From Antrihabitans auranticaus (GTDB lineage Bacteria; Actinomycetota; Actinomycetes; Mycobacteriales; Mycobacteriaceae): a stretch of DNA of 64,000 nucleotides. The stretch covers positions 186,001 to 250,000 of the forward strand of contig NZ_JAEMNW010000002.1 in the NCBI RefSeq assembly GCF_016481275.1, written 5' to 3'. Below the pieces are notes generated by a model. That model worked only from the letters and a program-made list of their open reading frames with translations, had not been told where the DNA came from and did no database searches. Both the position numbers and the translations under genes were made by a program. Positions 18,951 through 43,209 of this stretch are shown here, one piece after another; position 1 is the first letter of the stretch, and the number at the start of each line of letters is the position of its first letter.

Positions 18951-18979
18951 GAACTCGCAGTACTAGATACTGAATGTTC
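18951..18979. promoter_or_regulatory. 29-bp palindromic operator, copy 1
   Basis: Outer arms GAAC/GTTC and inner arms CAGTA/TACTG (inner core 18958-18972) share one centre region. The same design and length recur at 21847-21875 and 43181-43209. It ends two bases before the ATG at 18981. Confidence 0.65.
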
Positions 18980-18980
18980 G

Positions 18981-19886
18981 ATGAAAGGTCGTGGACTCGT
19001 GCAAACGAAAGCCCAGCGAAACGGATCGACCGGAGATGCCGCGGTGGCGGTATACCCGAAGACGCGGCGGATTCGCTTCCGCTTCGGTGCGGATGGCGCA
19101 ACGGAGAAGTACTTCGTCGACGACGACGTGGTGTTCAGCCACTTCGTCGCGGGACTGTCGGCGGGCTTTCCGCCGGGTGAGGAATCGTTCATCAGATCGG
19201 TGCGGCGATTCGCCGATCAGATCACCGACCCGGTGCTGAAGAAGCGTGTGGCCGGGTTCATCGGGCAAGAGGCGATGCATGGAATGGAACACCGCAGGCT
19301 GAATCAGAAGCTCGTCGAGTTGGGCTATCCGATCGAGTGGCTCGATCGGGATAGATTGAAGGAAAGGCAGATTCGGGTCGAAGATCGATTGCCCGGTCGG
19401 CTGCATCTGGCAATGACAGCCGCTGCGGAGCACTACACCGCCGTCCTGGCCGAACGCGTACTCTCCAGCGACGAGATCCAGGCGATCCCGGGTGAGCCGG
19501 AGATGTGGCACCTGCTGAACTGGCACGCGATGGAGGAACTCGAACACAAGTCGGTTGCGTTCGACGTCTACCGCGCAGTCGGCGGGAGCGAACGGATGCG
19601 AATCGCGGTGATGGCAGCCATCTATGCGTTCACCATCCCGTTCACGTTCACCACGCTGACGATCTCGCTGGCAAAGGATCCGACAGCTCGGCAACAGCCA
19701 CTGCGCTTGGCGCGAGAGGCGTACGGGCTCTTCCGTGGACCGGTGTTCAGGGGCCTGATGCCTGAGCTCGCAAAGTATCTGCGACCGGGTTTTCACCCCG
19801 ACGACATCGACACCGAGGCCCTGCTCGAGCGCTGGCAGGAGCACCTCTTCGGCGCCGACGGCGTACTCGTCGACCACGTGAAATAG
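18981..19886 (+). CDS. Predicted metal-dependent hydrolase (PF10118-like, ferritin-type di-iron fold)
   Basis: A protein of about 301 residues with helical metal-ligand motifs: GQEAMHGMEHRRLN (about residues 95-108), an EHY motif near residue 153, and HAMEELEHKSVAFDVY near residue 180. These match the uncharacterised metal-dependent hydrolase family built on a ferritin-like bundle. A C-terminal hydrophobic stretch (AVMAAIYAFTIPFTFTTL) may touch the membrane. ATG 18981 lies just after the palindrome; GTG at 18999 with AAAGG 10 bases upstream is an alternative start. The operator shared with an oxygenase operon suggests lipid or hydrophobic-compound oxidation. Confidence 0.78.
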   Translation: MKGRGLVQTKAQRNGSTGDAAVAVYPKTRRIRFRFGADGATEKYFVDDDVVFSHFVAGLSAGFPPGEESFIRSVRRFADQITDPVLKKRVAGFIGQEAMHGMEHRRLNQKLVELGYPIEWLDRDRLKERQIRVEDRLPGRLHLAMTAAAEHYTAVLAERVLSSDEIQAIPGEPEMWHLLNWHAMEELEHKSVAFDVYRAVGGSERMRIAVMAAIYAFTIPFTFTTLTISLAKDPTARQQPLRLAREAYGLFRGPVFRGLMPELAKYLRPGFHPDDIDTEALLERWQEHLFGADGVLVDHVK

Positions 19887-19891
19887 CACAC

Positions 19892-19919
19892 GCGGCCGCG
19901 GCGTTTCCGCCGCGGCCGC
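19892..19919. terminator. Bidirectional terminator hairpin
   Basis: A perfect 12-bp stem GCGGCCGCGGCG / CGCCGCGGCCGC with a TTTC loop, located between the convergent ends of the di-iron enzyme and the EphD-like gene. Confidence 0.75.
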
Positions 19920-19937
19920 ATCTGCCAACGACCGTCG

Positions 19938-21752
19938 CTACGACGTGATGTCTGCCCGGCCTGCCGCAAACCGGGTAATCGCAGGGGCGATGCGGTTGGC
20001 GTGGTACTGCAGGTGCGCTTCGGGTGTCACCGGAACGATGGCCCTGTTCTTCTGGACTGCCTTGACGATCTGCCTGGCGACCTTCTCGGGGCCATACCGC
20101 CGCATCCGGTACAGGCGGTCGAATCGCTCCTGCTTCTTCGCTTCCTCCGCCTTCGAAACGCCGGAGAAGGTCGTTGTCGCAACGATGTTCGTATGGACGA
20201 TGCCCGGGCAGATCGTGCTGACGCCGATTCCGGCACCCGCAAGCTCGGCACGCAGGCAGTCGGAGAACATGAAGACCGCGGACTTGCTGGTGGAGTAAGC
20301 CGAGAAGCCCTGCTGTGGTGAGTAGGCGGCCATGCTGGACAGATTCACGATGTGTCCGCCGAGACCACGTTCTGCCATCTTCGACCCGAATGCTCTGCAG
20401 CCGTTGACAACCCCGTACAGGTTGATGTCCAGGACCCGCTCGAACTCGGCCGGGGGAGTGTCGAGAAATCGTCCTGCCTGGCCGACCCCGGCATTGTTCA
20501 CCAGAACGTCTGGAACACCGTGCTTTTCGACGACCACGTCCGCATGCTTCTGGATGGCGTCCGCATCGCCGACATCGAGTTGGTAGGCATGCGCCAGTCC
20601 ACCCTGCTCGGCGATCAGCGCTGCTGTCTCTTTGGCGGATGCAAGATTGACGTCGGACAGGACGACTTCGGCACCCGCGCGCGCGAAGGCCAGCGCCGTC
20701 GCGCGCCCGATGCCCGAACCGGCGCCGGTGATAACCAATAGCTGATCATCGAATGGCATTCGTGCTCTGCCCATTTCGGCTCTGCGCAAAGTGCGGGCAG
20801 GCGGCTTTCCGCCCACGGCGTCGATCAGTTCGGTCGCAGCGTTGGCGAGGAACTCCGGATGGGAGAACGGCAACCAGTGCCCGCCCTTGATGACGCGTCG
20901 CCATACCGCAGGCGCCCACTTCGGTTCGTCGTCGTAGCCGGACTGGCGAATCGCGGGATCGCGCGTGCCGACGATGATCTGGACCGGAACGTCGGTGAAC
21001 CGCTCGCGGGGGCGCGCCAGTGCGGGGATCGCATTGGCCCGGTAGATGCGCAGGCCGTTTCCGATGTCCTTCTTGAACGTGGGACCCAGATGGATGTCGT
21101 CGAGTGCCGCACCCTCGGCGCGGGAAAGTCCCTGCCGCCAGCGCTTTTCGCTCATCCCGACGGCGAATGCGACCTTCGGGACGACCGGCGTCATGAAGAA
21201 GAACATGTAGCCGATCGAGCCCAGTTGGGACAGTGCAAGAGCGAGATTCTTCGGGGTCGGTCGCGCGAACTTGCTGCGCGCCCAGATCGCCATGTGTTCG
21301 GCGTTCGGACCTGAGACCGAGGTGAACGAGGCGATTCTTTCTCCGGCACCTGCCTCGCAGACCGCTTCCCACATGGCAACGCTGCCCCAGTCGTGCGCGA
21401 GAACGTGTACCGGCTTGCCAGGGCTCACCGCGTCGATCACGGCGAGGTAGTCGGATGCGAGGGCGGCGAGCCGGAAATCTCGGAAGCTTCTGGGGTTGGT
21501 CGACTTTCCGTGGCCGCGGTTGTCGACAGATACGACGTGGAACCGATCGGTCAGGTGTGGTGTGACGCCGTCCCAGAGGTGATGGGAGTCGGGCCAGCCG
21601 TGCAGCAGGAGCACGGTCTCACCCGCTGGGTTGCCCTGCTCGAAGACGGCGACGTCTATGTCGCCGTTACGTACGAACCGTTCGGTGATTTCTGGGTCAG
21701 GCGCCGAGGTCGGCTGCGCCAGTGTGGGGTCCAACTTTTGCTCCGACGTCAT
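19938..21752 (-). CDS. EphD-like fusion: alpha/beta hydrolase (epoxide hydrolase type) plus short-chain dehydrogenase
   Basis: A 604-residue two-domain protein. Residues about 25-315 are an alpha/beta hydrolase with LLHGWPDS, the nucleophile region VLAHDWGSVAM (D121, epoxide-hydrolase type) and a late GGHWLPFSHP histidine. Residues about 330-600 are an SDR with TGAGSGIG, NNAG, a serine in LSSM and YSTSK. This arrangement is that of mycobacterial EphD, proposed to act on mycolic-acid epoxides. ATG 21752 has GGAGAACC upstream. It is divergent from the enoyl reductase-like gene, sharing the palindrome at 21847-21875. Confidence 0.9.
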   Translation of the reverse strand: MTSEQKLDPTLAQPTSAPDPEITERFVRNGDIDVAVFEQGNPAGETVLLLHGWPDSHHLWDGVTPHLTDRFHVVSVDNRGHGKSTNPRSFRDFRLAALASDYLAVIDAVSPGKPVHVLAHDWGSVAMWEAVCEAGAGERIASFTSVSGPNAEHMAIWARSKFARPTPKNLALALSQLGSIGYMFFFMTPVVPKVAFAVGMSEKRWRQGLSRAEGAALDDIHLGPTFKKDIGNGLRIYRANAIPALARPRERFTDVPVQIIVGTRDPAIRQSGYDDEPKWAPAVWRRVIKGGHWLPFSHPEFLANAATELIDAVGGKPPARTLRRAEMGRARMPFDDQLLVITGAGSGIGRATALAFARAGAEVVLSDVNLASAKETAALIAEQGGLAHAYQLDVGDADAIQKHADVVVEKHGVPDVLVNNAGVGQAGRFLDTPPAEFERVLDINLYGVVNGCRAFGSKMAERGLGGHIVNLSSMAAYSPQQGFSAYSTSKSAVFMFSDCLRAELAGAGIGVSTICPGIVHTNIVATTTFSGVSKAEEAKKQERFDRLYRMRRYGPEKVARQIVKAVQKNRAIVPVTPEAHLQYHANRIAPAITRFAAGRADITS

Positions 21753-21846
21753 ATCGGTTCTCCGTCCGCGGTCGAATGTGACTGCCCGAATGCCGCCGCC
21801 GCGTTGACACGTCGTGCGAGGTGCGACACACTCGAGAATGTACACG

Positions 21847-21875
21847 GAACCAGCAGTATTGGGTACTGCATGTTT
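21847..21875. promoter_or_regulatory. 29-bp palindromic operator, copy 2
   Basis: Same outer GAAC/GTTT and inner GCAGTA/TACTGC design as copies 1 and 3. Including flanks, about 40 of 45 bp match the region around 43170-43215. It is placed between the divergent EphD-like and enoyl reductase-like genes. Confidence 0.75.
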
Positions 21876-21892: not shown

Positions 21893-23170
21893 GTGGCCGG
21901 CGTGCAGAATCTCGATCGCGAGTACGACATTGCGCTCTATGGCGCGACAGGATTTGTCGGCGGCCTCACCGCTGCCTATCTGGCGAAGGCAGCACCGACC
22001 GATGTTCGGATCGCGCTTGCCGGGCGCTCGCAACGCAAACTCGAGGCAGTGCGCGCAGGACTCGGTCCCGCAGCGGAGAACTGGGCCATCGTTCTCGCTG
22101 ACGCGACAGATCAGAGTTCGCTCGACGCCCTGGCTGCGAGCGCTCGCAGCATCGTCAGCACGGTCGGTCCCTACACCGAGCACGGCTTGCCCCTGGTCGC
22201 GGCGTGCGCCGCCGCGGGAACGGACTACGCGGATCTGACGGGAGAGTCGTTGTTCGTCCGGCGCAGTATCGACGGCTATCACAAGCAGGCTGCCGACACG
22301 ACCGCACGGATCGTGCACAGCTGCGGATTCGACTCGGTTCCATCGGATCTCAGCGTCCATGCGCTGTACCGCCGGGCGCTGGCCGACGATGCCGGCGAGC
22401 TGCGTGAGACCACGCTGGTGGTGCGGCGGATTCGCGGCGGAGTGAGCGGCGGAACGGCGGCCTCCGGGCTCGCGCAGCTGCGCGAGATGGCTACCGATCC
22501 AGCCGCGCGCCGACTTGCGGTCGATCCTTACACGCTGAGTCCCGTCCGTGCCGCCGAGCCCGAGCTGGGCCGTCAATCCGACGGCTCGCTGAAGCGCGCG
22601 GCCGGTATCGACCGCTCGCTCTCGGGTTGGACGGCAGGATTCTTCATGGGTCCGTACAACACGCGGATCGTGCGTCGTAGCAATGCAATACGCGACTTCG
22701 CGTACGGCCGCGAGTTTCGGTACAGCGAGGTCATGTCCCTCGGTCGAACACCGTTCGCTCTTGTGCCGGCGGCTGTACTGGCGGGCGGACTCACCGCAGG
22801 GGTGGCGCTCTCGCCATTGCTGCGGTTCGTGCCGCACAGCCTGCTGGCTCGACTGAGCCCGCGGCCGGGAACAGGACCGAGCGAGCGGTCGCGTGCGAAA
22901 GGCTTCTTCGCGATCGAGACGTTCGCGACGACGTCGTCGGGCAGGCGTTATCGCGCGCGCTTCGCGATGCAGGGTGACCCCGGCTATGCCGCTACTGCTG
23001 TACTGCTCGGTGAGTCGGCACTGGCGCTGGCACTCGATACGGACCGCCTCTCGCGCAGTGGCGGAGTGCTGACGCCCGCGACGGCGATGGGTGACCCGCT
23101 GCTGGATCGCTTGGTGCGCGCAGGCGTGGACATCCAGGTCGACGAACTGGTGGGCGCAGCCGCGCGGTGA
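21893..23170 (+). CDS. Trans-acting enoyl reductase / saccharopine dehydrogenase-like protein
   Basis: A 425-residue protein with an N-terminal NAD(P)-binding motif YGATGFVGG (residues about 16-24) and AGRS (about 43-46). SCGFDSVPSDLSVH follows at mid-length, a hallmark of the mycobacterial Rv2449c/Rv2953 group, of which the latter reduces phenolphthiocerol/phthiocerol precursors in trans. A hydrophobic stretch near residue 290 may dock it to the membrane. The GTG start has AAGGGAGAG upstream. It converges with the acyl-CoA synthetase gene, with 6 bp between stops. The lipid substrate is unknown. Confidence 0.85.
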   Translation: MAGVQNLDREYDIALYGATGFVGGLTAAYLAKAAPTDVRIALAGRSQRKLEAVRAGLGPAAENWAIVLADATDQSSLDALAASARSIVSTVGPYTEHGLPLVAACAAAGTDYADLTGESLFVRRSIDGYHKQAADTTARIVHSCGFDSVPSDLSVHALYRRALADDAGELRETTLVVRRIRGGVSGGTAASGLAQLREMATDPAARRLAVDPYTLSPVRAAEPELGRQSDGSLKRAAGIDRSLSGWTAGFFMGPYNTRIVRRSNAIRDFAYGREFRYSEVMSLGRTPFALVPAAVLAGGLTAGVALSPLLRFVPHSLLARLSPRPGTGPSERSRAKGFFAIETFATTSSGRRYRARFAMQGDPGYAATAVLLGESALALALDTDRLSRSGGVLTPATAMGDPLLDRLVRAGVDIQVDELVGAAAR

Positions 23171-25456: not shown

Positions 25457-26401
25457 TCAGTTGGGTACTGGTACTGCGATCCGGGCCGGACCGCTGTCCG
25501 GAAACACCGTGAGCAGTATGTTCATGATCGAGCCGGCGTCGACTCTGAGTGGTCGCAACTGCGACGTTGCAGGTTTCACGATCGTCGAAACCAGCGCGAG
25601 GTCGGGCGCCAGCAGTCCTAGATATTCGCCGAGTTTCGTCACGAGCGGCCCGATCGGCTGATCCCAGATGTTCTCTCCGACATAGGAGTAGTGCTCGAAC
25701 TCCTGGATGATCTGCACAGCGTTGGGCGTCAGCGACTCGACCGCCGGCGTTGTATCTCCGAGCACGCTGCCGTAGCCGTCGAAGTTGTCGCCGAGCGTCT
25801 GCACGTTGACGTAGAGCCGCGTGATGGCGTCTTTCTTGTCGTGCAACATCTGTGCGAACATGACCATCGCTCGGCTGAGCTTCGCCACGTCCTCGTCGCG
25901 GCCCAAGTTGCCGACTGTGAAGGTCGAGACGAGCCGCTCCAACGTCGCGGGATCCAATTGCGCCGTCAGAGAGTCGATCTTCGTCAAAGTGTCGCTGACG
26001 GTGGCCGATGTCTTGACCTGGCTCGCGGGTACCACTGCGCCGTCACCCAGATAGGGACCGGCTTCCGATGTGGGACGGAAGTCGATGAATTGTTCGCCGG
26101 CCGCCGAGAGGTTGCCGATCCGGACTTCGCTGTCGACCGGAATCGGGTACGCGGCATCGACCTGCACATCGACGGCGAGTCCCTCGGCTGTGGTCGAGAT
26201 TCGTTCGACGCGACCGATTTTCATTCCGCGCAGGTCAACCTCGGAAATATCCATGAGGCCGCCGGATGAATCGAGCAGCACCGTGATCGTGTGTGTTTCG
26301 CGCCGGGGATCCCAATCCAGCACTGCCACAGCCATGTACGCCGAACACACGAGGGTCATGGCGAGCAGCATGACGAGGGAGACGGGCGCTGGAATTTTCA
26401 T
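25457..26401 (-). CDS. mceF: Mce family protein, MceF
   Basis: A 314-residue protein with an N-terminal signal/anchor (VSLVMLLAMTLVCSAYMAV), the MCE/MlaD domain over about residues 37-115 (THTITVLLDSSGG... EVRIGNLSAAGEQFIDFRP), then a helical region. It is the sixth MCE subunit; these proteins build a hexameric tunnel that carries lipids from the outer layer to YrbE permeases. The ATG overlaps the mceE stop by 4 bp. Confidence 0.93.
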   Translation of the reverse strand: MKIPAPVSLVMLLAMTLVCSAYMAVAVLDWDPRRETHTITVLLDSSGGLMDISEVDLRGMKIGRVERISTTAEGLAVDVQVDAAYPIPVDSEVRIGNLSAAGEQFIDFRPTSEAGPYLGDGAVVPASQVKTSATVSDTLTKIDSLTAQLDPATLERLVSTFTVGNLGRDEDVAKLSRAMVMFAQMLHDKKDAITRLYVNVQTLGDNFDGYGSVLGDTTPAVESLTPNAVQIIQEFEHYSYVGENIWDQPIGPLVTKLGEYLGLLAPDLALVSTIVKPATSQLRPLRVDAGSIMNILLTVFPDSGPARIAVPVPN

Positions 26402-27390
26402 CGGACCAAACCGATCGAGCGGAGCACGTGGATCAACTGGTCTGCCTGGGCGCCGGCATCGATCCGAACGTTCGGAGCCGCCGACAGAAACGGAACAATC
26501 TTGTCGCGCAACAGCCGATCTACAGTGTCGACGTTCATCGGGACACTGGTATCTGCGTTCCCGATCGTGACCAGCGCGGGCGCGATCACCGCGATGATGT
26601 CGTGCACGTCGCCCGCGATCGGGACGAGAATATCGCCCAGGGGCCGCGCCAGATCGCGGAGCCGGAAGATCAGTTCGACAACACCGAACAGCACACCGCT
26701 CAGGCCCTCGGCCCGAGCAGGACCGTACTGCAATATTTCGTCTACACGCTCGTTGTTGGCTGCCAGATCGGTCGACACCGCAGCGGCCGCGCCGAGTATC
26801 CGGTCGATGTCGTCGGTATTCACCGTCAAGTCGTGCAGTGCCGCTTGCCCGGCGACAAATATCCTGCGGAAATCTTCGTCCGTCGCCGGAAACGCGGCGT
26901 TGAACTGGTTCACGACATCCTGTAGTTGCGCGACGCGACCACCCGAGACCATGCTCGACAGCCCGCGCAGCAGGTCTTCGATGTTGTCGGCCGGCGCAGT
27001 CTGTGACCGGGGGATCGTGTCACCGTCGACCAGGTACGGCCCCGTCGAATCCGCCGGCGGCAGTAACGAAATGTAGATCTCACCGAGGATGGTCGCTTGC
27101 CGCAGTTCGGCCCGCGTCGACACAGGAAGCTGGACCTCGCCTTTCAGGTCGACCTTCGCCACTGCCGACTCGCCGACCAACTCGACTCGGTCGACGATCC
27201 CGACCTCGACACCCTCTGCTACGACCTTTGCCTTGTCCGGAAGGTTGAGCGCACTGGAGAACTCGACGCTGACGGTGTACTTCGCGCCCTCGACGTACGT
27301 GCCCGGTATCGGCAGGTCTGCCGGGTCGAACCCGCACCCCGAGACGGCGAAGAGCGCAATACCGAAGATGACCGGCAGGACCTTCTTCAT
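26398..27390 (-). CDS. mceE: Mce family lipoprotein, MceE (LprN-like)
   Basis: A 330-residue protein with a lipobox VSGC (cysteine at about residue 19), the feature that marks MceE. An MCE domain follows (KYTVSVEFSSALNL... ILGEIYISLLPP). The downstream helical part forms the tunnel wall in known systems. Start 27390 follows the lipoprotein signal; a longer frame upstream is antisense-like Arg/His-rich sequence and was discarded. It overlaps mceD and mceF by 4 bp. Confidence 0.93.
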   Translation of the reverse strand: MKKVLPVIFGIALFAVSGCGFDPADLPIPGTYVEGAKYTVSVEFSSALNLPDKAKVVAEGVEVGIVDRVELVGESAVAKVDLKGEVQLPVSTRAELRQATILGEIYISLLPPADSTGPYLVDGDTIPRSQTAPADNIEDLLRGLSSMVSGGRVAQLQDVVNQFNAAFPATDEDFRRIFVAGQAALHDLTVNTDDIDRILGAAAAVSTDLAANNERVDEILQYGPARAEGLSGVLFGVVELIFRLRDLARPLGDILVPIAGDVHDIIAVIAPALVTIGNADTSVPMNVDTVDRLLRDKIVPFLSAAPNVRIDAGAQADQLIHVLRSIGLVR

Positions 27391-28340
27391 CGTGTCGCCG
27401 CCTGTCCGAGCAGTGATGCCATCAGGTCGCGCGATGCCTGGGGGACGTAGGCGAGGAGATCGCGGATGTCGCCGGCGCGGCTGAGCAGTTGGTGTGAGAA
27501 GGGGAGTGCCTTGTCGAGAAAGGCATAGGACTGTTCGTCGTACTTGTCGATCGTGCGTGCGGCCACTGGGAGAAACTCGTTCGCCTTCGCGAGCGCCGTC
27601 CCGAGTCCCGAAGCGATACCGTCGACGACCTCGAGGCCGTTGCCGAGATTCTGCAGCAGGGTGCTGAAGTCGGGCCAGTTGGTGACGAACATGGTGGTGA
27701 GGCGGTCGAGATTGTCGATGAGGCGACGGACGACGACGTCCTTGTCCGCTGGATCGCCCACAAGAGTGCTCAGCCGCCCGAGCAGCGAATTGAACGTGGG
27801 GCCTGTTCCGTCGAGTGCCGCGTCGAGTGAGTTCAGCGCGTCGGCCAGGATGGGATCCGGTGGGGTACCGGGTCCGCCGTCGGATTCGGAGCCGAGTAGG
27901 TCGGCGGCAACGGCGTTCACCGCGTCGAAGGTCTCGCTGATCCCGAGCGGTGTCTTGGTGCGCGTCAGCGGGATGCATTGTGCACCCTCGAATAGCGGAC
28001 CCCCGGTGTAGGGCTTGGTGAGCTCGACGTGCCGGTCGGTCACGATCGAACTCGACATGGTCACTGCACCGACATCCGCGGGAACCGCAATGTCGTGATC
28101 GATGTCCATCGTGACCTTCATGCGATCGCCCATGGGCTCGATCGCCGCGACGCTTCCGATTTCGATGCCCAGCAAGGTGACGTCGTTGCCCTCGTACAGC
28201 CCGACAGTGTCGGTGAATTCCGCGCACATCGTCTTCGAATCCCGATCCAGACTGCTTACCGCGGAAGTTGCTGCGCCGCCAAGCAATACGACGGCGGCAG
28301 CGCCGAGGGCGAGATAACCGACCTTCTTTCCCACGCTCAC
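27387..28340 (-). CDS. mceD: Mce family protein, MceD
   Basis: A 317-residue protein with an N-terminal hydrophobic anchor (VGYLALGAAAVVLLGGAA) and an MCE domain (CAEFTDTVGLYEGNDVTLLGIEIGSV... SSSIVTDRHVELT). I chose GTG 28340, just after the mceC stop, because upstream in-frame starts would extend into mceC without similarity. The MCE domain includes a cysteine shortly before the core strand, common in MceD. Confidence 0.92.
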   Translation of the reverse strand: MSVGKKVGYLALGAAAVVLLGGAATSAVSSLDRDSKTMCAEFTDTVGLYEGNDVTLLGIEIGSVAAIEPMGDRMKVTMDIDHDIAVPADVGAVTMSSSIVTDRHVELTKPYTGGPLFEGAQCIPLTRTKTPLGISETFDAVNAVAADLLGSESDGGPGTPPDPILADALNSLDAALDGTGPTFNSLLGRLSTLVGDPADKDVVVRRLIDNLDRLTTMFVTNWPDFSTLLQNLGNGLEVVDGIASGLGTALAKANEFLPVAARTIDKYDEQSYAFLDKALPFSHQLLSRAGDIRDLLAYVPQASRDLMASLLGQAATR

Positions 28341-28341
28341 G

Positions 28342-29343
28342 TCAGCACTCTCGCATTGCGCTGGGGATACAGATTCCGGCATCGGTGGTGGCGCCGCCGA
28401 GTTCGTCGGCATGCGCGTTCTCGATACCGAGCATGGCCGAAATCGACGTCATGAACTCCTGGATTCCTGCGATGACTTCATCGAGCTTGCTGGTGTCGGC
28501 GAAGACTTTGTTCACGACTTCTTCGAGTTCCGCTATCGGGGGTTCGAGTCCGTCGGCATAGGCCATGATCGGGCGGTGTACGACGTCGGCCAACCGCCGC
28601 AGTAGCTGGAACGTCTGCACCACATCGTCTTTGTGCGAGCCGAGCTTCACCGCGACGATGCCGAGCTGACGGACGAAATCAGCCAGCACCGCCTGGTCGT
28701 CGGCAATGGCGGCGATGTATTCGTCGGATACCCGGAGTCCCTGGTCCAGCTGGTCGGAGCGCTGCGCCAGTACGCCCGTGAGGTCGTTGACGTTGTTGAG
28801 CAGGTTGCGAACCGCCTCCGGCTGACCGGCCATCGCCTTGTTCACCTCGGTGATCGTGGCCCGCAGCGTAGTGCCGTCGACCTGGCGCAGCATGGGTGTC
28901 GCGTCCTGCATGATGTCGGTGATCTCGTACGGGGTCTTGGTGCGTTCCGGCGGTATGTGAGCTGACCCGAGGTCGTCGTCGCCGGCTGGTGAAAGCGCGA
29001 GGTAGTGTCCGCCGATCGGTGTCAGCATCTTGATTTCGACGGCAGAGAGGTCGCCGACGTGCACGCCCTGGTCGACGGCGAAGCGAACCTCGACGTGATC
29101 ACCGACCAGGCGGACCGACTGGACGCTGCCGACTTTGATGCCCGCGACCCTGACCTCGTTGCCGCTGCGCGCCCCGCCCGCGCTGCGGAAATCCGCGACG
29201 TAGGTGTCGGTACCGAAGGGCACCAGATAGATCACGGCACTGATCGCGAGTCCGACGATCGCGACGACGATACCGGTTGCGCCCCAGCGTAGTTGAGAAT
29301 TGGGCTCGTCCACGACCGGACGTGGCTTGCGGCCGATCTTCAT
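28342..29343 (-). CDS. mceC: Mce family protein, MceC
   Basis: A 333-residue protein: short basic N-terminus (MKIGRKPRP), membrane segment IVVAIVGLAISAVIYLV, MCE domain (TYVADFRSAGGARSGNEVRVAGIKVG... IGGHYLALSP), then a long helical domain. ATG 29343 overlaps the mceB stop. It ends with a cysteine (AMREC). Confidence 0.93.
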   Translation of the reverse strand: MKIGRKPRPVVDEPNSQLRWGATGIVVAIVGLAISAVIYLVPFGTDTYVADFRSAGGARSGNEVRVAGIKVGSVQSVRLVGDHVEVRFAVDQGVHVGDLSAVEIKMLTPIGGHYLALSPAGDDDLGSAHIPPERTKTPYEITDIMQDATPMLRQVDGTTLRATITEVNKAMAGQPEAVRNLLNNVNDLTGVLAQRSDQLDQGLRVSDEYIAAIADDQAVLADFVRQLGIVAVKLGSHKDDVVQTFQLLRRLADVVHRPIMAYADGLEPPIAELEEVVNKVFADTSKLDEVIAGIQEFMTSISAMLGIENAHADELGGATTDAGICIPSAMREC

Positions 29344-30341
29344 TTGCAGATCACCAGCCGTTGGTTGCCGAGCACGGCAGAGCCGATGCCGGGAAGGTCT
29401 GCGCCGCCTGTCGGGCAGGCGAAGCCGGCGGCCGCGGCGGGCGTCCGGTTGTTCAAGCCGGACAGCAGCGACGGCACGAGCGACAAGATTTCGACCCATT
29501 GGTCGGAGCGGGGGACCACGCGGCGAAACAGTCCGTGCAGCGGCAGGTAGCTCTCGTCGTACGCGCCCTGCAGTTGTTCGAGCAGTTCGACCGCCGGTTG
29601 CAGCGCGCGATTTGCTTCCTTTGTCGCAGAGACGATTTCGTCTGCCTTGGTGCTGAACCTGCTGAGCAGGCCACCGAGTTGCTCGACCAGATCGCCCACC
29701 TGCGCGGACCTGCCCGCAATCTGGTTGGAGATCTCGCCGAGGTTTCGGATCAACAGGACGATCACGGCCTCGCGGTCCTTTGCGTACTTCGTCAGCGTGT
29801 CGAGATCGGCCAGGACGGGACCGATTCCGGCACCGTCGCCCTGCAACACGCGAAGGATGTTCTCGCCGAACTGGTTCAGTTGCGCGGTGTCGAGTGTGTC
29901 GAACAGCGGCCGAAACCCGTTGAACAGCTTGGAGACGTCGAAGCTCGGTATCGTCGCCGCGAGCGGAAAAGCGTAGTTTCGGGCCACGGGCGTCGCGGTG
30001 GCATCCGGTTGTACGAGTTCGATGTACCGCTGGCCCAACAGGTTCTGATAGCGGACGGCGGGCTGTGTCGTTTCGTAGACGGGCCGGTCGGCTTGCACCG
30101 AGAAGCGGACACGCGCATTCACGCCATCGAGCGTGACCGACTCGACCTTGCCGACCTGCACCCCGGACATCCGGACGTCGTCACCGGCGAAGAGGCCGGA
30201 TACGTCGGAGAAGAGAGCTTCGAACTCGACTTTGTCGCCCGGTACCGGGGTGCGCAGCGCGGTAACGATGACCACCGAACACGCGGTCACGATCACGACG
30301 AAGATTGCGAGGCGCAGCACTGCGCCGCGAACGGTGATCAT
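29340..30341 (-). CDS. mceB: Mce family protein, MceB
   Basis: A 333-residue protein with an N-terminal hydrophobic segment (VLRLAIFVVIVTACSVVIVTAL) and an MCE domain (DKVEFEALFSDVSGLFAGDDVRMSGVQVGKV... NLLGQRYIELVQP). The helical tail carries an LLEQLQGAYD repeat-like amphipathic stretch. It overlaps mceA and mceC by 4 bp, typical of the operon. Confidence 0.93.
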   Translation of the reverse strand: MITVRGAVLRLAIFVVIVTACSVVIVTALRTPVPGDKVEFEALFSDVSGLFAGDDVRMSGVQVGKVESVTLDGVNARVRFSVQADRPVYETTQPAVRYQNLLGQRYIELVQPDATATPVARNYAFPLAATIPSFDVSKLFNGFRPLFDTLDTAQLNQFGENILRVLQGDGAGIGPVLADLDTLTKYAKDREAVIVLLIRNLGEISNQIAGRSAQVGDLVEQLGGLLSRFSTKADEIVSATKEANRALQPAVELLEQLQGAYDESYLPLHGLFRRVVPRSDQWVEILSLVPSLLSGLNNRTPAAAAGFACPTGGADLPGIGSAVLGNQRLVICK

Positions 30342-31366: not shown

Positions 31367-31368
31367 TC

Positions 31369-32244
31369 TTACCCCGAAATCCTGATGCCGACATCGAGTC
31401 CCCAGAACAGCAGAGTCATCACCATGTCCGCGATGACAACGCCGATCAGGCTCGCCCGGATCGCCCGGCCGGACGCCCTGCCCACGCCCTCGGGGCCGCC
31501 GGTCGCGTAGAAGCCCTGGTAGCCGTGAATGATGATGATCATCACGACGAAAACGATCGCCTTCACCAGTGAGAACAGCACGTCGGACGGTTGAATGAAC
31601 GCCCCGAAGTAGTGGTAGTAGGTGCCGCTGGATTGTCCGTGCAGGACGTTGACCACGACGGCGCACGAGAGGTAGCTGAGGATCAACGTCAGCAGAAACA
31701 GCGGAACGATCGTGATCACACCCGCGATGACCCGCGTGGTCACGACGAACGGAATAGGCCGCACCGCAGTTGCTTCCAGTGCATCGATCTCCTCGGAGAT
31801 CCGCATCGCCCCGATCTCGGCGGTCATGCGGCACCCCGCCTGTGCGGCGAAGCCGATCGCCGCGATCATCGGTGCCATTTCCCGGGTATTGGCGTAGGCC
31901 GACACGAATCCGGTGAGTGGGCCCATCCCCACCATGTCGAGGGTCGAGAAGCCTTCGACGCCGATCGAGCCGCCCACCGCGACGCCGAGAAACGCCAGGA
32001 CGGCGACAGTGCCGCCGCCGACAATGATCGACCCGTTGCCCCAGGTGATGTCGGTCAGGATCAGCATCGTCTGGCGCCGATAGGCGCGAAGCGTGTGCGG
32101 TACCGCGGCAAGCACCTGCCAGACGAAGGTGAACTGGTGGCCGAGGTGCTCCGCGAAAGCTACGGGTGTCCGCACGACCGCGGCGGCGCCGCCGAAGAGA
32201 GTGGCAGTGCCGTATGGCCGCACCTTCGCCGGTGTATCGACCAT
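31369..32244 (-). CDS. MlaE/YrbE family permease, YrbEB
   Basis: A 291-residue integral membrane protein of the MlaE family with about five to six helices. The cytoplasmic coupling segment is AEIGAMRISEEIDALEATAVRPIPFVVTTRV, the conserved contact for the ATPase (Mkl, encoded elsewhere). ATG 32244 overlaps the yrbEA stop. It forms the inner-membrane permease of the Mce lipid importer with YrbEA. Confidence 0.94.
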   Translation of the reverse strand: MVDTPAKVRPYGTATLFGGAAAVVRTPVAFAEHLGHQFTFVWQVLAAVPHTLRAYRRQTMLILTDITWGNGSIIVGGGTVAVLAFLGVAVGGSIGVEGFSTLDMVGMGPLTGFVSAYANTREMAPMIAAIGFAAQAGCRMTAEIGAMRISEEIDALEATAVRPIPFVVTTRVIAGVITIVPLFLLTLILSYLSCAVVVNVLHGQSSGTYYHYFGAFIQPSDVLFSLVKAIVFVVMIIIIHGYQGFYATGGPEGVGRASGRAIRASLIGVVIADMVMTLLFWGLDVGIRISG

Positions 32245-33074
32245 CAACCGATCCTTGTTGGCATGAACATCGAAACAAGCTGTGTAATAACCAGATTGAC
32301 ACCGAAGGCTGCCATCACGCCGATCACGACGGCAGCGTTCACCGCGTTCGCAACGCCCTTGGGCCCGTGTGTCGATTCAAGCCCGCGCTGGCAGGCCACG
32401 ATCACCACGATGATGCCGAACAAGATCGATTTGGCAACGGCGACAAGTAGATCGGAGACCGAAGCGAACGACGCGAACGACGACAGGTAGCTGCCGGGTG
32501 TCCCACCCTGAGCGCCGACATTGATCAGGTAACCGGTCCCGACACCCATGAAGACGATCACCAGGCACAGCAGTGGAGCGATCGCGGCCATCGCCGCAAG
32601 GCGCGGCGCAACGAGCCTGCGGACCGGGTCGATGCCCATCGTGCGCATGGCGTCGATCTCGTCGCGGATCGTTCTGGCTCCGAGATCCGCTGCGATCGCC
32701 GAGCCCGCGGCGCCGCCGAGCAGTAGGGCGGCGACGATCGGAGCACCCTGCCGGATCACTCCGAGGCCGCCTGCTGCACCTGCGATCGACGTGGCGCCGA
32801 CCTGCTGAGTCAGGCTGCCGACCTGAACGGAGACGATGACACCGAACGGCACCGACACCAGCACCGCAGGTACGGCCGTCACGCTGACGATGAACCAGGC
32901 CTGTAACAGTGTCTCGCGCAATGGATGCCGCAAGCGCACGATGTCGATTACCAGATACATGCCGGCGTCCACGCCGAGTCGGAGTGCGCGGCCGACGGTC
33001 CGAGTCGCGGTGAGGCCGAGGTCGACTCCCCATCGAACGGTGCGAGCGGGTGTCTGGACAACTGTGTCCAACAT
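32244..33074 (-). CDS. MlaE/YrbE family permease, YrbEA
   Basis: A 276-residue MlaE-family permease with the coupling helix LGARTIRDEIDAMRTMGIDPVRRLVAPRLAAM. The start at 33074 is chosen because GAGGAGG lies four bases ahead; an earlier ATG at 33140 would add an unrelated 22-residue leader over the promoter region. It is first in the nine-gene mce operon, which is headed by the promoter at 33141-33169. Confidence 0.93.
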   Translation of the reverse strand: MLDTVVQTPARTVRWGVDLGLTATRTVGRALRLGVDAGMYLVIDIVRLRHPLRETLLQAWFIVSVTAVPAVLVSVPFGVIVSVQVGSLTQQVGATSIAGAAGGLGVIRQGAPIVAALLLGGAAGSAIAADLGARTIRDEIDAMRTMGIDPVRRLVAPRLAAMAAIAPLLCLVIVFMGVGTGYLINVGAQGGTPGSYLSSFASFASVSDLLVAVAKSILFGIIVVIVACQRGLESTHGPKGVANAVNAAVVIGVMAAFGVNLVITQLVSMFMPTRIG

Positions 33075-33140
33075 TTCCGCCTCCTCGAAGTTCGGCCAGC
33101 CGACGTGACCGCCGTCACCAGGTGTTCGAAAACCTAGCAT

Positions 33141-37737: not shown

Positions 37738-38706
37738 TCAGCGCGATGCTTTGTCGGACGAGCTCAGGGCGCTGAAATTCGCGCCTGTGAGTTCGACGGA
37801 CTTCTCCCACAGTGCTGCGGCGAGGTCGGCGTTGCGGGCTGAGCGTGTGCGCGGGGAGCGGCTGATCGGTCCGCGGACGCCGAAGAGGCGGTTGGGTCCG
37901 ATGTAGTCGTCGTTGCGAACGTCGCCCATGGTCGCCGCGTACAGCTGGCTCAACGCGCCGTGCCGCTCGCTGTTGCCGAACAGGCGGAGCCCGAGGTGCG
38001 TGGCCGCGAGAGCGCCAGGAATGGGCGGCACCATCGAATCGAAGAGGTTCGTCGCGGCAACGCCGGGGTGGGCGGCTATCGACGTGAGGTTCGAGCCCGC
38101 GGCAGAGCTGCGCCGTGCGAGTTCGGCGCTGAACAAGAGGTTGGCGAGTTTGGACTGCCCGTAGGCTGTCATGCGTCCGTAGCGGCGGCGGTCGAAGTTG
38201 AGGTCGTCGAGCACGATTCGGCCCTGCCTGTGCGCGATACTCGCAAGGTTGACGACGCGCGGCGCGGAAGCGGCGACAAGCGCGGAAAGAAGGCCGTCGG
38301 TGTAGGCGAAGTGGCCGAAATGATTTGTCCCGATCTGCATCTCGAAGCCGTCAGCCGTTCGCGCGAACGGTACCGCCATGAGGCCGGCGTTATTCACCAA
38401 CACATCGATCTCGGGCGCGACTGCGATCGTCTGCGATGCTGCACGACGCACCGAGGCGAGGTCGGCGAGGTCCAGCTCGACCAATTGGTGGTCGGCTGCC
38501 GGGCCTGCCTGTGCAACGAGTGAAAGTGCCTGCTGCCCAGTGGTCTGATTACGGCAGGCGAGCACTATTCGGGCTCCAGCCCCGGCGAGAGCGGTCGCAG
38601 CCTGCAAGCCGAGGCCGTTGTTGGCGCCGGTGATGACGATCGTCTTCCCCGTCTGGTCGGGAATGTGGGGTACGCGGAAGTTCTTGATCGCCAGTGCGTT
38701 TGCCAT
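37738..38706 (-). CDS. Short-chain dehydrogenase/reductase, retinol dehydrogenase-like
   Basis: A 322-residue SDR. The cofactor motif is TGANNGLG (about residues 26-33), NNAGLM is central, the catalytic serine lies in VNLASIAH, and YGQSKLANLLF gives the Tyr-x3-Lys. It resembles the retinol dehydrogenase/protochlorophyllide-reductase-like subgroup common in mycobacteria. The TetR gene lies upstream, 9 bp away on the same strand, so the two are likely co-transcribed. Substrate unknown. Confidence 0.88.
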   Translation of the reverse strand: MANALAIKNFRVPHIPDQTGKTIVITGANNGLGLQAATALAGAGARIVLACRNQTTGQQALSLVAQAGPAADHQLVELDLADLASVRRAASQTIAVAPEIDVLVNNAGLMAVPFARTADGFEMQIGTNHFGHFAYTDGLLSALVAASAPRVVNLASIAHRQGRIVLDDLNFDRRRYGRMTAYGQSKLANLLFSAELARRSSAAGSNLTSIAAHPGVAATNLFDSMVPPIPGALAATHLGLRLFGNSERHGALSQLYAATMGDVRNDDYIGPNRLFGVRGPISRSPRTRSARNADLAAALWEKSVELTGANFSALSSSDKASR

Positions 38707-38715: not shown

Positions 38716-39450
38716 TTACTCGGTTGGTTCGGTCATCGAAAATGCAAGGTGCAGAGGTTGTTCGGGAGCGATGAGAACGCCGTTCATCCGGGCATTGGAC
38801 TCCGCGATGCTGGAAATGGTCGTCGCGAGGTAGTCGACGAACTGCTCGATCGGCATGGGGAGAGGCCGATTGCGCGAGGCGCCGAGCCACCAATCCGTCG
38901 CAGACGCAACAGTTCCGAAGACGGTGTATATGGTCAGTTCGGCACGATCGATGTCGACCGAACGGTGGTCCAGAGTTTCGGCGAGCAGTACTGCCGCGCG
39001 ACGCGCGTACTGCCGCGCGGACTGCAGTGCCCGCTCCGACTCGTCGGCCTGCTGAGTGAAGTGGCTGTGAACCATGAATCTGAAGGCGTTCGGATGTTCG
39101 GTGACAACCAGCGCGTATTCGGCCGCTCCGCGCCGCACCAACTCGCGGGTGGTGTCGTTCAACAAGTTCACGCTTGCGATGAGGCGCTCCCAGAGCAACT
39201 CCTGCGTGCGGTCGACAATCGCGTTGTACAAGTCGATCTTGTCCTCGAAGTGCCTGTACAGCTTAGGTTTTGCCGCGCCGGCCTCCTTGGCGATGTCGTC
39301 CATGCTCACGTCGGGACCGAACTTGTCCAGCGCCCTGAACGCGGCATCGACAAACTCGTTTCGCACTTTGATCCGGTGCTCGCGCCAGCGCTCGGTGCGT
39401 GCGTCCACACGCTGGCCGGTCGACTGCTTCTTGCCCCTCGCAGGTATCAC
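38716..39450 (-). CDS. TetR family regulator
   Basis: A 244-residue regulator with the HTH EFVDAAFRALDKFGPDVSMDDIAKEAGAAKPKLYRHFEDKIDLY, preceded by RTERWREHR as in the TetR at 18106. The GTG start has no ribosome binding site. A palindrome TAGTATCCGATACTA lies 9-24 bp upstream, implying a leaderless, self-repressed transcript. It is co-directional with the SDR gene downstream. It is a candidate regulator for the lipid-uptake or the 29-bp-palindrome regulon. Confidence 0.88.
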   Translation of the reverse strand: MIPARGKKQSTGQRVDARTERWREHRIKVRNEFVDAAFRALDKFGPDVSMDDIAKEAGAAKPKLYRHFEDKIDLYNAIVDRTQELLWERLIASVNLLNDTTRELVRRGAAEYALVVTEHPNAFRFMVHSHFTQQADESERALQSARQYARRAAVLLAETLDHRSVDIDRAELTIYTVFGTVASATDWWLGASRNRPLPMPIEQFVDYLATTISSIAESNARMNGVLIAPEQPLHLAFSMTEPTE

Positions 39451-39459
39451 AGGGAGCGA

Positions 39460-39474
39460 TAGTATCCGATACTA
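39460..39474. promoter_or_regulatory. Palindrome TAGTATCCGATACTA in front of the TetR gene
   Basis: A perfect 7-bp inverted repeat around C, overlapping the 3' end of the UbiB-like gene. The core AGTA..TACT resembles the inner part of the 29-bp palindromes but lacks their GAAC/GTTC outer arms. Confidence 0.55.
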
Positions 39475-40884
39475 GCGGTACTGGCTACTACTGGTTCCGT
39501 TTGCTTTCGCTTCCCGGTCGGCGAGCCAGCGGGCGTGCGCCTCGCCGAGCGGCGTAGTCGGCGCTTCGCCGTAGATCCATTCTCGCGCGATCCGATGCCA
39601 GTTGTTGGCGGCGCCGAGCTGGCCGAGCACGCCGAACGTCAGGAAGTCGGCACGACGGGAAAAGATGTGTTCGGGCGGCAAATTCTGGTGTCGCATACCG
39701 GCGAACTCCGATACCCGCGGGTCGATGGCGAGCAGAATGCTCCCGCTCGCCATGGCCGGCGTCACGGCGATCTGCTCGTCGGTCAGGTGCCAGCCCGCCG
39801 CACCGTGGACATAGTCGAGACACTCGTCGACGGTGACTCCGGCGTCTGCATTGATCACGCCGCGCGCCACCATGAGATCGAAGAGATCCTGACTGCGGTT
39901 CTCGGTTGCAGCGCGTAGGCACTGTTTCTCGAAATCGACGTGGATCGGATCCATGCGGTTGTAGAGACCGAAATCGATGAATCCGACCTTGCCGTTCGCG
40001 CCAAGCAGGATGTTGCCGGGATGCGGATCGCCGCAGAACTCGTTGAACGCGAACAGCGACCCGATATAGAAGCGGTAGACGATTTCCCCGACTCGGTCGC
40101 GATCCTGTTGTGGCAGTGCGCGTATCGCGTCGAACGACTGACCGTCGAAGAGCTCGGTGACGACGACCTTTGGCCCGCTCGCTGCGGGGACGCTGTCGGG
40201 TACCTCGATGAACGGATGGTCTGCGAAGAGCAGCGCAAGCTCGTGCTGGGTGCGTGCTTCGCGCTCGTAGTCGAGCTCGCTCTCCATATTGAGCTTGATC
40301 TCGTGTGCGAGCTCGGGCGCCGCGACGGCGGGAAGGGTCGATCGCCAGAACTTCAGAAACATCGCGAGGTTCTTCATGTCCGCGCGAATAGCGACGTCGA
40401 TGCCGGGATACTGCACCTTGACTGCAACGGGGCGCCCGTCGTGCAGACGGGCGCGATAGACCTGACCGATCGATGCCGCTGCGATCGGCACGTCGTCGAA
40501 CTCGGCGAACACTGCGGAGATCGGCCGGCCGAGATCGCTCTCCAGGGTGGCACGCATCGTGTCGAACGAGACCTTCGGCGCCTGATCGCGCAGCACGGCG
40601 AGCTTTCGCTGGAAGCTCTCACGGTGTGACTCGGGAACGAGCTCCAGATCGATCACCGAAAGCATCTGGCCCAGCTTCATGGCCGCGCCCTTCATGCTGC
40701 CGAGCACGGTTACCAGCTGATCGGCTGCCTGGAGTGCGGCCTTCTCCGAAATCCGAATCTTCGCATCGTGCGATCGGCCGATCATGGATACGCGCGTGCC
40801 GGCCGAACGGAACGCCTGGCCCGCTGCCACTTTGCCGATCTTGGAGCCGCGCGCGACACGAGATGTCGGAACCTGGTCGTTCAT
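39472..40884 (-). CDS. UbiB/ABC1/AarF family atypical kinase
   Basis: A 470-residue protein-kinase-like ATPase. It shows the UbiB-specific KxGQ motif (MKLGQML), the alanine-rich loop AAASIGQVYRA, the lysine strand VAVKVQYPG, the catalytic-loop-like FCGDPHPGN, and the metal motif FIDFG. These features are family-defining. Family members support lipid or quinone metabolism; the substrate here is unknown. Start 40884 has AAGGACC upstream. Its promoter (40925-40953) shares the operator of the mce operon. Confidence 0.9.
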   Translation of the reverse strand: MNDQVPTSRVARGSKIGKVAAGQAFRSAGTRVSMIGRSHDAKIRISEKAALQAADQLVTVLGSMKGAAMKLGQMLSVIDLELVPESHRESFQRKLAVLRDQAPKVSFDTMRATLESDLGRPISAVFAEFDDVPIAAASIGQVYRARLHDGRPVAVKVQYPGIDVAIRADMKNLAMFLKFWRSTLPAVAAPELAHEIKLNMESELDYEREARTQHELALLFADHPFIEVPDSVPAASGPKVVVTELFDGQSFDAIRALPQQDRDRVGEIVYRFYIGSLFAFNEFCGDPHPGNILLGANGKVGFIDFGLYNRMDPIHVDFEKQCLRAATENRSQDLFDLMVARGVINADAGVTVDECLDYVHGAAGWHLTDEQIAVTPAMASGSILLAIDPRVSEFAGMRHQNLPPEHIFSRRADFLTFGVLGQLGAANNWHRIAREWIYGEAPTTPLGEAHARWLADREAKANGTSSSQYR

Positions 40885-40924: not shown

Positions 40925-40953
40925 AATTATTCGACTGACGTGTCACTCTTTGA
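40925..40953 (-). promoter_or_regulatory. UbiB-like gene promoter with operator TGACGTGTCA
   Basis: Minus-strand -35 TCAAAG (40948-40953) and -10 ATAATT (40925-40930), with a 17-bp spacer. The operator TGACGTGTCA (40936-40945) is 5 bp from the -10. Because it lies in a divergent gap, it may also control the small gene at 41019. Confidence 0.68.
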
Positions 40954-41018
40954 TGTGGCACAGACTACAGACGGTCCGAGCAATGCCACAACGACTTGTC
41001 ACGAAAGGAACGTCGCAG

Positions 41019-41348: not shown

Positions 41349-41416
41349 GCCCACGGGCCGGTACCGTCGCAGATGCGACTGGAGTAACGGCTGAGATTCG
41401 GTGAAGGCGGGTGAGC

Positions 41417-42115
41417 ATGGCACATCCTGAAGCGGTGGCGAACGCTGAATCGGCGACGACTGCAGGTGCGCCGCGCCCACGGCGCGGCCGGCCCAAGCAG
41501 GAGGGGCTCGCCGAGCGGCGCCGCGAACAGATCATCGAATCCGCGTACTACGTGTTCGCCGCAAAAGGGTACGAATCGACGACGATCTCCGACGTCGCGA
41601 AGCATGCGGGGGTCGGCCAAGGCACCGTGTACCGGTACTTCGACAGCAAGCGCGAAATTCTCGACCAGGTCTTCGACTACTCGGCCGAGCGGTTCGTCAG
41701 TCTGATCGCGACGGACGACCTCATGGCACCCGTTCGCTCGCTCGCGGATTTCGCCGACCGCTTGACGCAGATCGCCACCCGGATGGCAGGCGCGATCGAG
41801 CGAGAGCCCGAGTTGCTACGGCTGATCATCGTCGAGGCCAGCGCCGCTGACGCAGAGCTCAATGCACGCGTTCTGGGCCTGAAGAGCTTTCTGTCGGAAA
41901 TGATTGCGCGGATCCTCGAGGACGGGATCGAGCGCGGTTGGATTCGTCCCGAAATCGACACCGGAACGTATGGGCAGTACATCATCGCGCTGGTGCTGCC
42001 TGGGTTGCGGCATGCAGTTCAGGGCACGCTGACCGCGGACTGGAAGACCAGATTCACCGAACAGACTGTCGGCATCCTCGCAGCGGCAATGCGCGTCCCG
42101 GGGCATAGCTCATGA
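41417..42115 (+). CDS. TetR family regulator (first of an overlapping pair)
   Basis: About 232 residues. After a disordered N-terminus with an AT-hook-like RPRRGRPKQ comes the HTH IIESAYYVFAAKGYESTTISDVAKHAGVGQGTVYRYFDSKREIL. ATG 41417 is chosen; GTG 41411 is nearly as good relative to GAAGG at 41402. Its end overlaps the second TetR by ATGA, so both are made from one mRNA. Confidence 0.88.
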   Translation: MAHPEAVANAESATTAGAPRPRRGRPKQEGLAERRREQIIESAYYVFAAKGYESTTISDVAKHAGVGQGTVYRYFDSKREILDQVFDYSAERFVSLIATDDLMAPVRSLADFADRLTQIATRMAGAIEREPELLRLIIVEASAADAELNARVLGLKSFLSEMIARILEDGIERGWIRPEIDTGTYGQYIIALVLPGLRHAVQGTLTADWKTRFTEQTVGILAAAMRVPGHSS

Positions 42116-42729
42116 CCGCTCAGGAAACGTCTGATCGCCTCGAAGCCCGCCGTGCCGACTTGATCCGTACCGCAACGGAATTGATCCTCGGCAAGGGCTA
42201 CCGAAATACGTCGGTGGCCGACATCGTGGGCGCCCTGGGGCTCAGCCACGGCACCTTCTACAACTACTTCGACAGCAGGCGTGACATCCTCGATGCGGTG
42301 ATCGACCATGGCGGCAAACTGCTGACGCAGCGCTTGGTCGGACCCGACGAGCCCACGTCCGCCGAGACGCTCGACGAGTTCCTGGCGCAAGTTGCCCGAA
42401 TAAACAATCGCGTCCACGAACTGGTTGCCGACGAGCCGGCGCTGCTGCAGTTCGTAGTTTTCGAAGCGGCGTCGATCGACGAAGCCGTGGTGCAGCGGAT
42501 GCTCGCGACGTATCAGGCCTTTGCTGCGGCGAGTAGGTCCTACGTCGAGAACGGCATCGAAAGAGGTTTCCTCCGAAGCGATCTCGATCCCGAAGTAGCC
42601 GGGGAAGCACTCGCGACCGTACTGCTCTCCAGCACGATCGGCGCGCTCGGCGACGGTGTCGCTGCCGATGCGGCGGTCTCGACAGCGGCGCTCGTCGATT
42701 TCGTCAGGCACGGGATGGGCAACGAGTAG
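42112..42729 (+). CDS. TetR family regulator (second of an overlapping pair)
   Basis: A 205-residue regulator with HTH LIRTATELILGKGYRNTSVADIVGALGLSHGTFYNYFDSRRDIL and an all-helical ligand domain. It overlaps the upstream TetR by 4 bp. The two proteins have similar length, and both have an (I/V)ENGIERGF/LEDGIERGW-type segment, consistent with an old duplication. They may form a heterodimer. Confidence 0.88.
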   Translation: MTAQETSDRLEARRADLIRTATELILGKGYRNTSVADIVGALGLSHGTFYNYFDSRRDILDAVIDHGGKLLTQRLVGPDEPTSAETLDEFLAQVARINNRVHELVADEPALLQFVVFEAASIDEAVVQRMLATYQAFAAASRSYVENGIERGFLRSDLDPEVAGEALATVLLSSTIGALGDGVAADAAVSTAALVDFVRHGMGNE

Positions 42730-42735
42730 CTGCTG

Positions 42736-43071
42736 TTACTCGACCTCGCTCAACTCGGTGGCCACGTGGAACGGCGGCGTGCTCTTTCCCATGATGCGGT
42801 ACCGATTCCAGGGGTCGGGATCGCCGACGAAGGCGTCGCGAGCGCTGTGCGGCGTCCGAACCGTCACCTTCGTGCGTGGCTCGTCCCCAAGAATTGCAGT
42901 CAGCTCAGGGTTGGGGTCGATTCGGCCGATCCAGCGGAAGATCCCATCGATCGGCTCGCGGTACCCCCGCATCTCGACCCGCGCTGCGATCTCTGTTCCG
43001 TGAACGACGAGAGTCGCCTCGCCGAGATAGTCGGAGCCTTCGTGGGGGCTGTGCGGAACGACGCTGTTCAT
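42736..43071 (-). CDS. DUF4873 domain protein
   Basis: A 111-residue protein reading YLGEATLVVHGTEIAARVEMRGYREPIDGIFRWIGRI, the typical opening of the DUF4873 domain. That domain is often found fused to, or next to, flavin monooxygenases in mycobacteria. It converges with the TetR pair (6 bp between stops) and is divergent from the oxygenase operon, so it may help the monooxygenase encoded there. Function unknown. Confidence 0.78.
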   Translation of the reverse strand: MNSVVPHSPHEGSDYLGEATLVVHGTEIAARVEMRGYREPIDGIFRWIGRIDPNPELTAILGDEPRTKVTVRTPHSARDAFVGDPDPWNRYRIMGKSTPPFHVATELSEVE

Positions 43072-43180
43072 CCTGCCTCCTGAAAAGTGGTGCAGTCAAA
43101 GTAGTTGCAGCTGAGTGATATTCAGGTTGTCGTGACCGTTGACATCGGGGTCGACCTGGGTCACACTTCGAATGTACACG

Positions 43181-43209
43181 GAACTGGCAGTATTGGGTAC
43201 TGTCAGTTC
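43181..43209. promoter_or_regulatory. 29-bp palindromic operator, copy 3 (oxygenase operon)
   Basis: Outer arms GAAC/GTTC and inner CAGTA/TACTG (43188-43202). The upstream flank AATGTACACG is identical to that of copy 2. It sits 35 bp before the ATG of the first di-iron gene and 110 bp before the DUF4873 gene. Confidence 0.78.

Follow-up and report, generated by a model that had tools for sequence, protein, structure and literature searches.

A putative TetR-type operator in front of lipid-oxidation genes of Antrihabitans and other Mycobacteriales

KstR and KstR2, which govern the cholesterol regulons of Mycobacterium and Rhodococcus, are TetR repressors with palindromic operators and control many lipid-catabolic and mce uptake genes. 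The locus described here lies in a 64-kb window (the whole stretch of DNA analysed) of the 6.5-Mb genome of a cave actinobacterium of the genus Antrihabitans, and it resembles these regulons in combining TetR proteins, a palindrome and probable lipid-catabolic genes with mce uptake genes. It differs in its TetR subfamily and in its enzymes, and the KstR/KstR2 operator is unlike the palindrome of the window. Neither of the two candidate regulators, TetR_A and TetR_B, matches the NCBIfam KstR model, and another TetR protein of the window, TetR_C, scores 45.6 bits against that model's cut-off of 280. The best NCBIfam model for TetR_A and TetR_B is FasR of Mycobacterium tuberculosis, the activator of fatty acid synthase. 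Both proteins fall outside that family, however, scoring 41 and 47 bits where the model requires 330, and FasR activates. The first PDB matches of TetR_B are 6o6n to 6o6p, listed as TetR family regulator, which we take to be FasR. On the enzyme side, phenylacetyl-CoA epoxidase PaaABCE contains an active/inactive pair of ferritin-like subunits and the PaaE reductase. Two proteins of the window, AurF2 and AurF1, together with a PaaE-like reductase, may by analogy form such an active/inactive arrangement, although these subunits belong to the AurF family and no PaaB was seen.

Other TetR systems also invite comparison. Mce3R is described in PMC11667970 as a TetR-like repressor of lipid-related genes, a double TetR on a non-palindromic sequence; it differs in this from the single TetRs and strict palindrome of the window. 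In Rhodococcus, the hydrocarbon-induced alkane hydroxylase operon AlkU-alkB includes a TetR repressor (PMC6921075), but AlkB is a membrane enzyme and the operators proposed there (GATTTacAAATC and ACAAATcTtcAtATTTGT) have no relation to the window sites. QacR occupies its long operator, a 28-bp palindrome, as a tetramer (cited in PMC4482099), and the 25-29 bp palindrome of the window could likewise, by analogy, hold two dimers. TetR regulons are a known kind, and the regulon with the present operator has apparently not been described so far. No description of the regulon, the enzyme combination or the operator strings was found in the open-licence full-text literature, where the operator comparison covered letters other than those of the MAB_4384 operator (M. 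abscessus MmpS5/L5) and the motif logos of a mycobacterial TetR survey.

Taken together, we read the palindrome as the operator of a repressor of the TetR_A/TetR_B subfamily that controls a lipid-oxidation regulon, and we give this joint reading a probability of roughly 0.8. What the sequence itself shows is where the sites are and how they are spaced, their promoter-like geometry, how far they are conserved and which genes surround them; binding, repression, ligand and reaction order are what we infer from this.

The palindrome and its family-wide form

The pattern searched was GAAC-N3-CAGTA-N5-TACTG-N3-GTTC, 29 bp long. An earlier note on this DNA had placed three copies in the window, and direct reading of the sequence found all of them: putative operator site 1 at 18951..18979 (GAACTCGCAGTACTAGATACTGAATGTTC), site 2 at 21847..21875 (GAACCAGCAGTATTGGGTACTGCATGTTT) and site 3 at 43181..43209 (GAACTGGCAGTATTGGGTACTGTCAGTTC), none with a strand. 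The arms and spacing said to be common to the copies are exact in sites 1 and 3, while site 2 has one mismatch, its outer right arm being GTTT and not GTTC. The gene context is as had been stated, with site 1 before a PF10118 gene, site 2 between the divergent EphD-like and enoyl-reductase-like (TER-like) genes and site 3 before the aurF operon.

The window contains three matches at two or fewer mismatches, against none in 100 dinucleotide shuffles. A genome-wide scan, as the note had proposed, returned sites 1-3 alone at up to two mismatches, so the motif is not random; the next-best places in the 6.5 Mb have three mismatches, and the chance expectation at one mismatch or fewer is about 0.002. 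A looser 16-bp core pattern found the same three sites genome-wide and added none at one mismatch. A chance origin of the palindrome is ruled out by the shuffles, by the whole-genome scan and by the reversed and mis-spaced patterns given below.

Each site lies just downstream of a putative promoter, the hexamers of which are predictions on the + strand. The promoter of the PF10118 gene (18911..18939) reads TTGCGT-17-TACTCT, and A. stalagmiti has TTGCCA-17-TAGCCT at the same position. TTGACA-17-CACACT occurs both at 21804..21832, facing the TER-like gene, and at 43139..43167, in front of the aurF operon. The upstream flank that copies 2 and 3 had been said to share is indeed common to them and consists of this promoter plus AATGTACACG. 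With spacers of 17 nt throughout, sites 1, 2 and 3 begin 11, 14 and 13 nt downstream of the -10 element. The aurF promoter, with identical hexamers and 17-nt spacing, and its operator are kept together in six further species: A. stalagmiti, A. stalactiti, N. amikacinitolerans, N. lijiangensis, N. xishanensis and N. puris. The likely start codons, read by hand, are GTG 18999 (PF10118), ATG 21752 (EphD-like) and ATG 43244 (AurF1), and none falls inside an operator.

The position just downstream of a promoter is the classical one for a repressor operator, and the palindrome overlaps or adjoins the predicted promoters as in a TetR repressor/operator system. The site is most likely a repressor operator of this kind, serving several lipid-oxidation genes. 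A repressor bound just downstream of the -10 element would bar RNA polymerase from the PF10118 gene, from the EphD/enoyl-reductase pair and from the aurF1-aurF2-BVMO-SDR-reductase operon (BVMO, Baeyer-Villiger-type monooxygenase).

A matrix of six sites gave a more general operator form, ACY-N2-YRGTAY-N3-RTACYR-N2-RGT. Allowing one mismatch, 13 genomes hold 44 forward matches to it versus 6 for the reversed pattern. Across 79 loci fetched by AurF2 homology there are 47 matches at spacer 3 and 0-1 at other tested spacers, except for 5 at spacer 7. Sixty-two of these loci around AurF relatives were held out, having been taken by contig match as outside the derivation genomes although some may be close relatives, and they yielded 23 matches at the correct spacing and 0-1 at wrong spacings, again except for 5 at spacer 7. 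Called coding sequence makes up 85% of these loci, yet all but one of the 23 held-out matches fall in the gaps between called genes, and nearly all are 50-80 nt before aurF. In 53 of the 79 loci the core RGTAYN3VTACY lies no more than about 290 nt from the first aurF, where about one would be expected. In Nocardia loci that scored as lacking the site, a diverged form of the operator directly follows the promoter.

Among 401 family genomes, the exact site is present in 38 (45 matches, versus 3 for a reversed-pattern control). It is commoner alongside AurF2, occurring in 27 of 74 genomes that have this protein and in 11 of 327 that do not (odds ratio 16.5). The pattern falls short of full specificity, since some exact matches in genomes without AurF2 look like conserved sites of another kind. 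Outer arms of the GAAC/GTTC type characterise the form seen in Antrihabitans and Nocardia, and other genera mostly have (G/A)TAC. In the window, the general form also uncovered a putative site 4 (39453..39497, no strand), which is not in the earlier note: two overlapping family-type sites, 16 bp apart and each one mismatch from the family-wide pattern, directly before the TetR_B gene.

The loci found come nearly all from Mycobacteriales. In several genera the site stands before aurF1 and aurF2, frequently the two of them, and before TER, EphD, the SDR of the type at 37738, the reductase, PF10118, mce and TetR genes. Since the same site precedes the same genes in five genera (Nocardia, Gordonia, Williamsia, Rhodococcus and Dietzia), these genes seem to belong to a single pathway under joint control. 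Some twelve scattered genes with no more than a family-level annotation would thereby be tied together in these genera and, through weaker sites, in the Mycobacteroides group, and the operator code offers a means to map the regulon in any of these genomes.

Two same-genus genomes, A. stalagmiti YC3-6 and A. stalactiti YC2-7, share the locus. In A. stalactiti, aurF1-aurF2-BVMO-SDR-reductase-EphD-TetR_A is a single run behind one site, and TER and EphD are joined to the aurF cluster in G. hirsuta, G. effusa and G. alkanivorans. The presence of TER and EphD in aurF clusters or operons of other species unites the second and third units of the window. Together with the same operator before the same genes elsewhere, this genomic context supports the earlier proposal that the three units are under shared control. 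For the first unit, the counterpart of site 1 in A. stalagmiti is GAACTCGTAGTACTAGATACTTACTGTTC, between TetR_A and PF10118, in the order TetR_A, site, two PF10118 genes, BVMO, hydrolases and reductase; outside Antrihabitans, a PF10118 gene clearly has the site in a single Nocardia species only, N. vulneris. Aldersonia (L041) and Nocardia sp. BSTN01 (L148) also have the site in front of their mce permease genes; in G. araii (L044) it stands before a hydrolase gene that directly precedes mce. The window's own mce operon (25457-33140) has no operator site.

Candidate regulators

TetR_A (18106..18807, + strand) carries TetR_N plus TetR_C_32/46 in Pfam. TetR_B (38716..39450, - strand; Pfam) likewise has the TetR_N DNA-binding domain and is probably autoregulated, with the double site 4 before it. 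The two are paralogues of one subfamily. In A. stalactiti and N. puris, TetR_A orthologues adjoin AurF clusters that have the site; in A. stalagmiti the orthologue adjoins PF10118. TetR_B orthologues, 71-73% identical, are divergent from aurF1 with the site in between in three Nocardia species. A. stalagmiti (L136) and A. stalactiti (L137) likewise have double sites resembling site 4 in front of TetR_B-like genes. The candidate regulator gene lies beside its putative targets with a site of its own, as in TetR repressor/operator systems. The recognition helix (K/R)P(K/T)LYR(H/F/Y)F is nearly constant in TetR_A, TetR_B and their relatives beside sites. A TetR_A/B-type gene is present in 47 of the 79 loci and in 24 of the 33 with a strict site; the remaining 9 strict-site loci show none within the stretch seen, and 23 loci have the gene without a strict site, some of them with a diverged one.

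The earlier note had named the genes at 18106 and 38716 as candidates. They stand because relatives of the same subfamily adjoin the site in other species, because TetR_B has a double site and because the tandem TetR pair discussed below is rare at such loci. From this pattern of sequences, the subfamily represented by the genes at 18106 and 38716 most likely supplies the regulator, through one of them or both. The repressor's own tetR-SDR unit would be repressed through the double site, and a hydrophobic ligand, probably a substrate or intermediate, would release the protein. The inducing ligand should reveal the substrate.

The two proteins, with their common recognition helix, may instead share one operator and answer to different ligands, TetR_A governing PF10118 and TetR_B the aurF operon, so that the units would be co-targeted and not one response. 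Both genes are in the window, the paralogues are just 35% identical, and GAAC-type operators lie beside orthologues of either one, depending on the species. However, sites 1-3 have common arms and spacing that should suit either protein, and one such TetR per cluster is usual in other species. We consider this division between two regulators a real possibility, if not a probable one.

Enzymes and the proposed route

The aurF operon (all genes Pfam-assigned or domain-assigned, + strand) begins with AurF1 (43244..44203), an AurF-fold protein without metal ligands, and AurF2 (44241..45257), by sequence a catalytic di-iron oxygenase with an AurF domain. Equivalents of the AurF di-iron ligands H142, E219 and E135 are missing in 41 of 41 AurF1-type proteins, whereas the full E/H ligand set is kept in 97 AurF2-type proteins, both sets containing repeats of the same genomes. 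The predicted fold of AurF1 matches AurF (3chu/2jcd), so the fold is kept; a PDB profile search with AurF2 gave no match. The PaaE-like flavin/2Fe-2S reductase (47737..48774) has Fer2, NAD and FAD domains, and its best NCBIfam model is PaaE (240.6 bits, below the cut-off). The ligands kept in AurF2 and lost in AurF1, along with this reductase, suggest an unusual active/inactive AurF pair, in which AurF1 is probably a conserved, metal-ligand-less structural partner of AurF2. Between these genes lie the BVMO (45289..46869), which has the type I fingerprint FxGxxxHxxxW(P/D) as FAGAAFHSAQWD and has BVMOs as its nearest solved relatives, and an SDR alcohol dehydrogenase (46880..47728) with YxxxK and TGxxxGIG.

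The PF10118 protein (18999..19886, + strand; Pfam) is a ferritin-like di-metal oxidase candidate. Its probable start, GTG 18999, was chosen by hand from the frame, from an alignment with A. stalagmiti and from a ribosome site, GAAAGG. The term di-iron, which the earlier note had used for it, agrees with the sequence motif, E67, E97xxH100, E150 and E186xxH189 being invariant in 29 sequences; the predicted model matches R2-like oxidases weakly (E about 0.03, TM about 0.46). The EphD-like alpha/beta hydrolase-SDR fusion (19938..21752, - strand; Pfam, and NCBIfam NF004514 above cut-off) has the site before its orthologues in A. stalagmiti, G. hirsuta and G. araii. The TER-like reductase (21893..23170, + strand), with a saccharopine-dehydrogenase-type NADP domain (PF03435), has it in three Gordonia species, and the SDR downstream of TetR_B (37738..38706, - strand; Pfam) has it in G. 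alkanivorans.

In the route we propose from these enzyme families, AurF2 with the metal-less AurF1 and the PaaE-type reductase would hydroxylate an imported hydrophobic compound, and PF10118 would hydroxylate in parallel. The SDR would turn the alcohol into a ketone, the BVMO would insert oxygen, and alpha/beta hydrolases would then cleave the ester. A broader proposal is that Mycobacteriales widely possess a Baeyer-Villiger route for a hydrophobic substrate, opened by a di-iron monooxygenase of AurF type with two subunits (catalytic AurF2 and metal-less AurF1, with the PaaE-like reductase), under a single operator code that a whole TetR subfamily recognises; we put this forward tentatively, at a little under even odds. 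Subterminal oxidation via a BVMO is known in Rhodococcus (PMC12724338).

The enzymes might also make or modify an endogenous envelope or storage lipid rather than degrade an imported compound. The near-restriction of the loci to Mycobacteriales would be in keeping with this, as would the TER-like and EphD-like proteins, which are relatives of mycobacterial envelope-lipid enzymes. Yet uptake and breakdown agree better with the BVMO, the hydrolases and the mce genes, which share an operon or lie in adjacent ones and in part have the site, and an endogenous substrate seems rather unlikely to us.

Remaining alternatives and further sites

The regulators nearest to site 3 are a tandem TetR pair (41411/42112, TetR_C/D) directly upstream of the aurF operon, an arrangement kept in A. 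stalagmiti. That this pair binds the sites is nevertheless improbable, as TetR_C/D occurs in only 1 of the 33 site-bearing loci and is absent beside the cluster in Nocardia and Gordonia, where the site is kept; its distribution over loci disfavours it as the regulator. It is very improbable that the palindrome is an activator site, a terminator or some other RNA feature: NCBIfam labels FasR, the closest family with a name, as an activator, but the site is downstream of the -10 element, not upstream of the -35, and is conserved as a spaced DNA palindrome.

Beyond the window, the Antrihabitans genome has two one-mismatch sites of the family-wide form with no obvious target gene. One (L129:8241; G000:C12:112240) lies 3' of a TetR gene that neighbours another operon of the order PF10118-PF10118-BVMO-hydrolase-reductase, and the other (L130:7624; G000:C1:1470623), partly doubled, lies in a 2.5-kb stretch without called genes. 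A second aurF2-type copy occurs at G000:C1:1545858-1551232 with a TetR_B-type gene nearby; in the corresponding region of A. stalagmiti (L169) the genes run aurF2-BVMO-SDR-reductase-TetR, and the operator has diverged. In A. stalagmiti (L128:11332-12841), the EphD-adjacent site keeps the AATGTACACG flank, and a P450 gene on the opposite strand takes the place of TER. A second cluster, ABC1-TER-TetR-SDR, is present in all three Antrihabitans genomes (L131, L136, L137), and its A. stalagmiti copy additionally contains a methyltransferase and a PPK2 gene.
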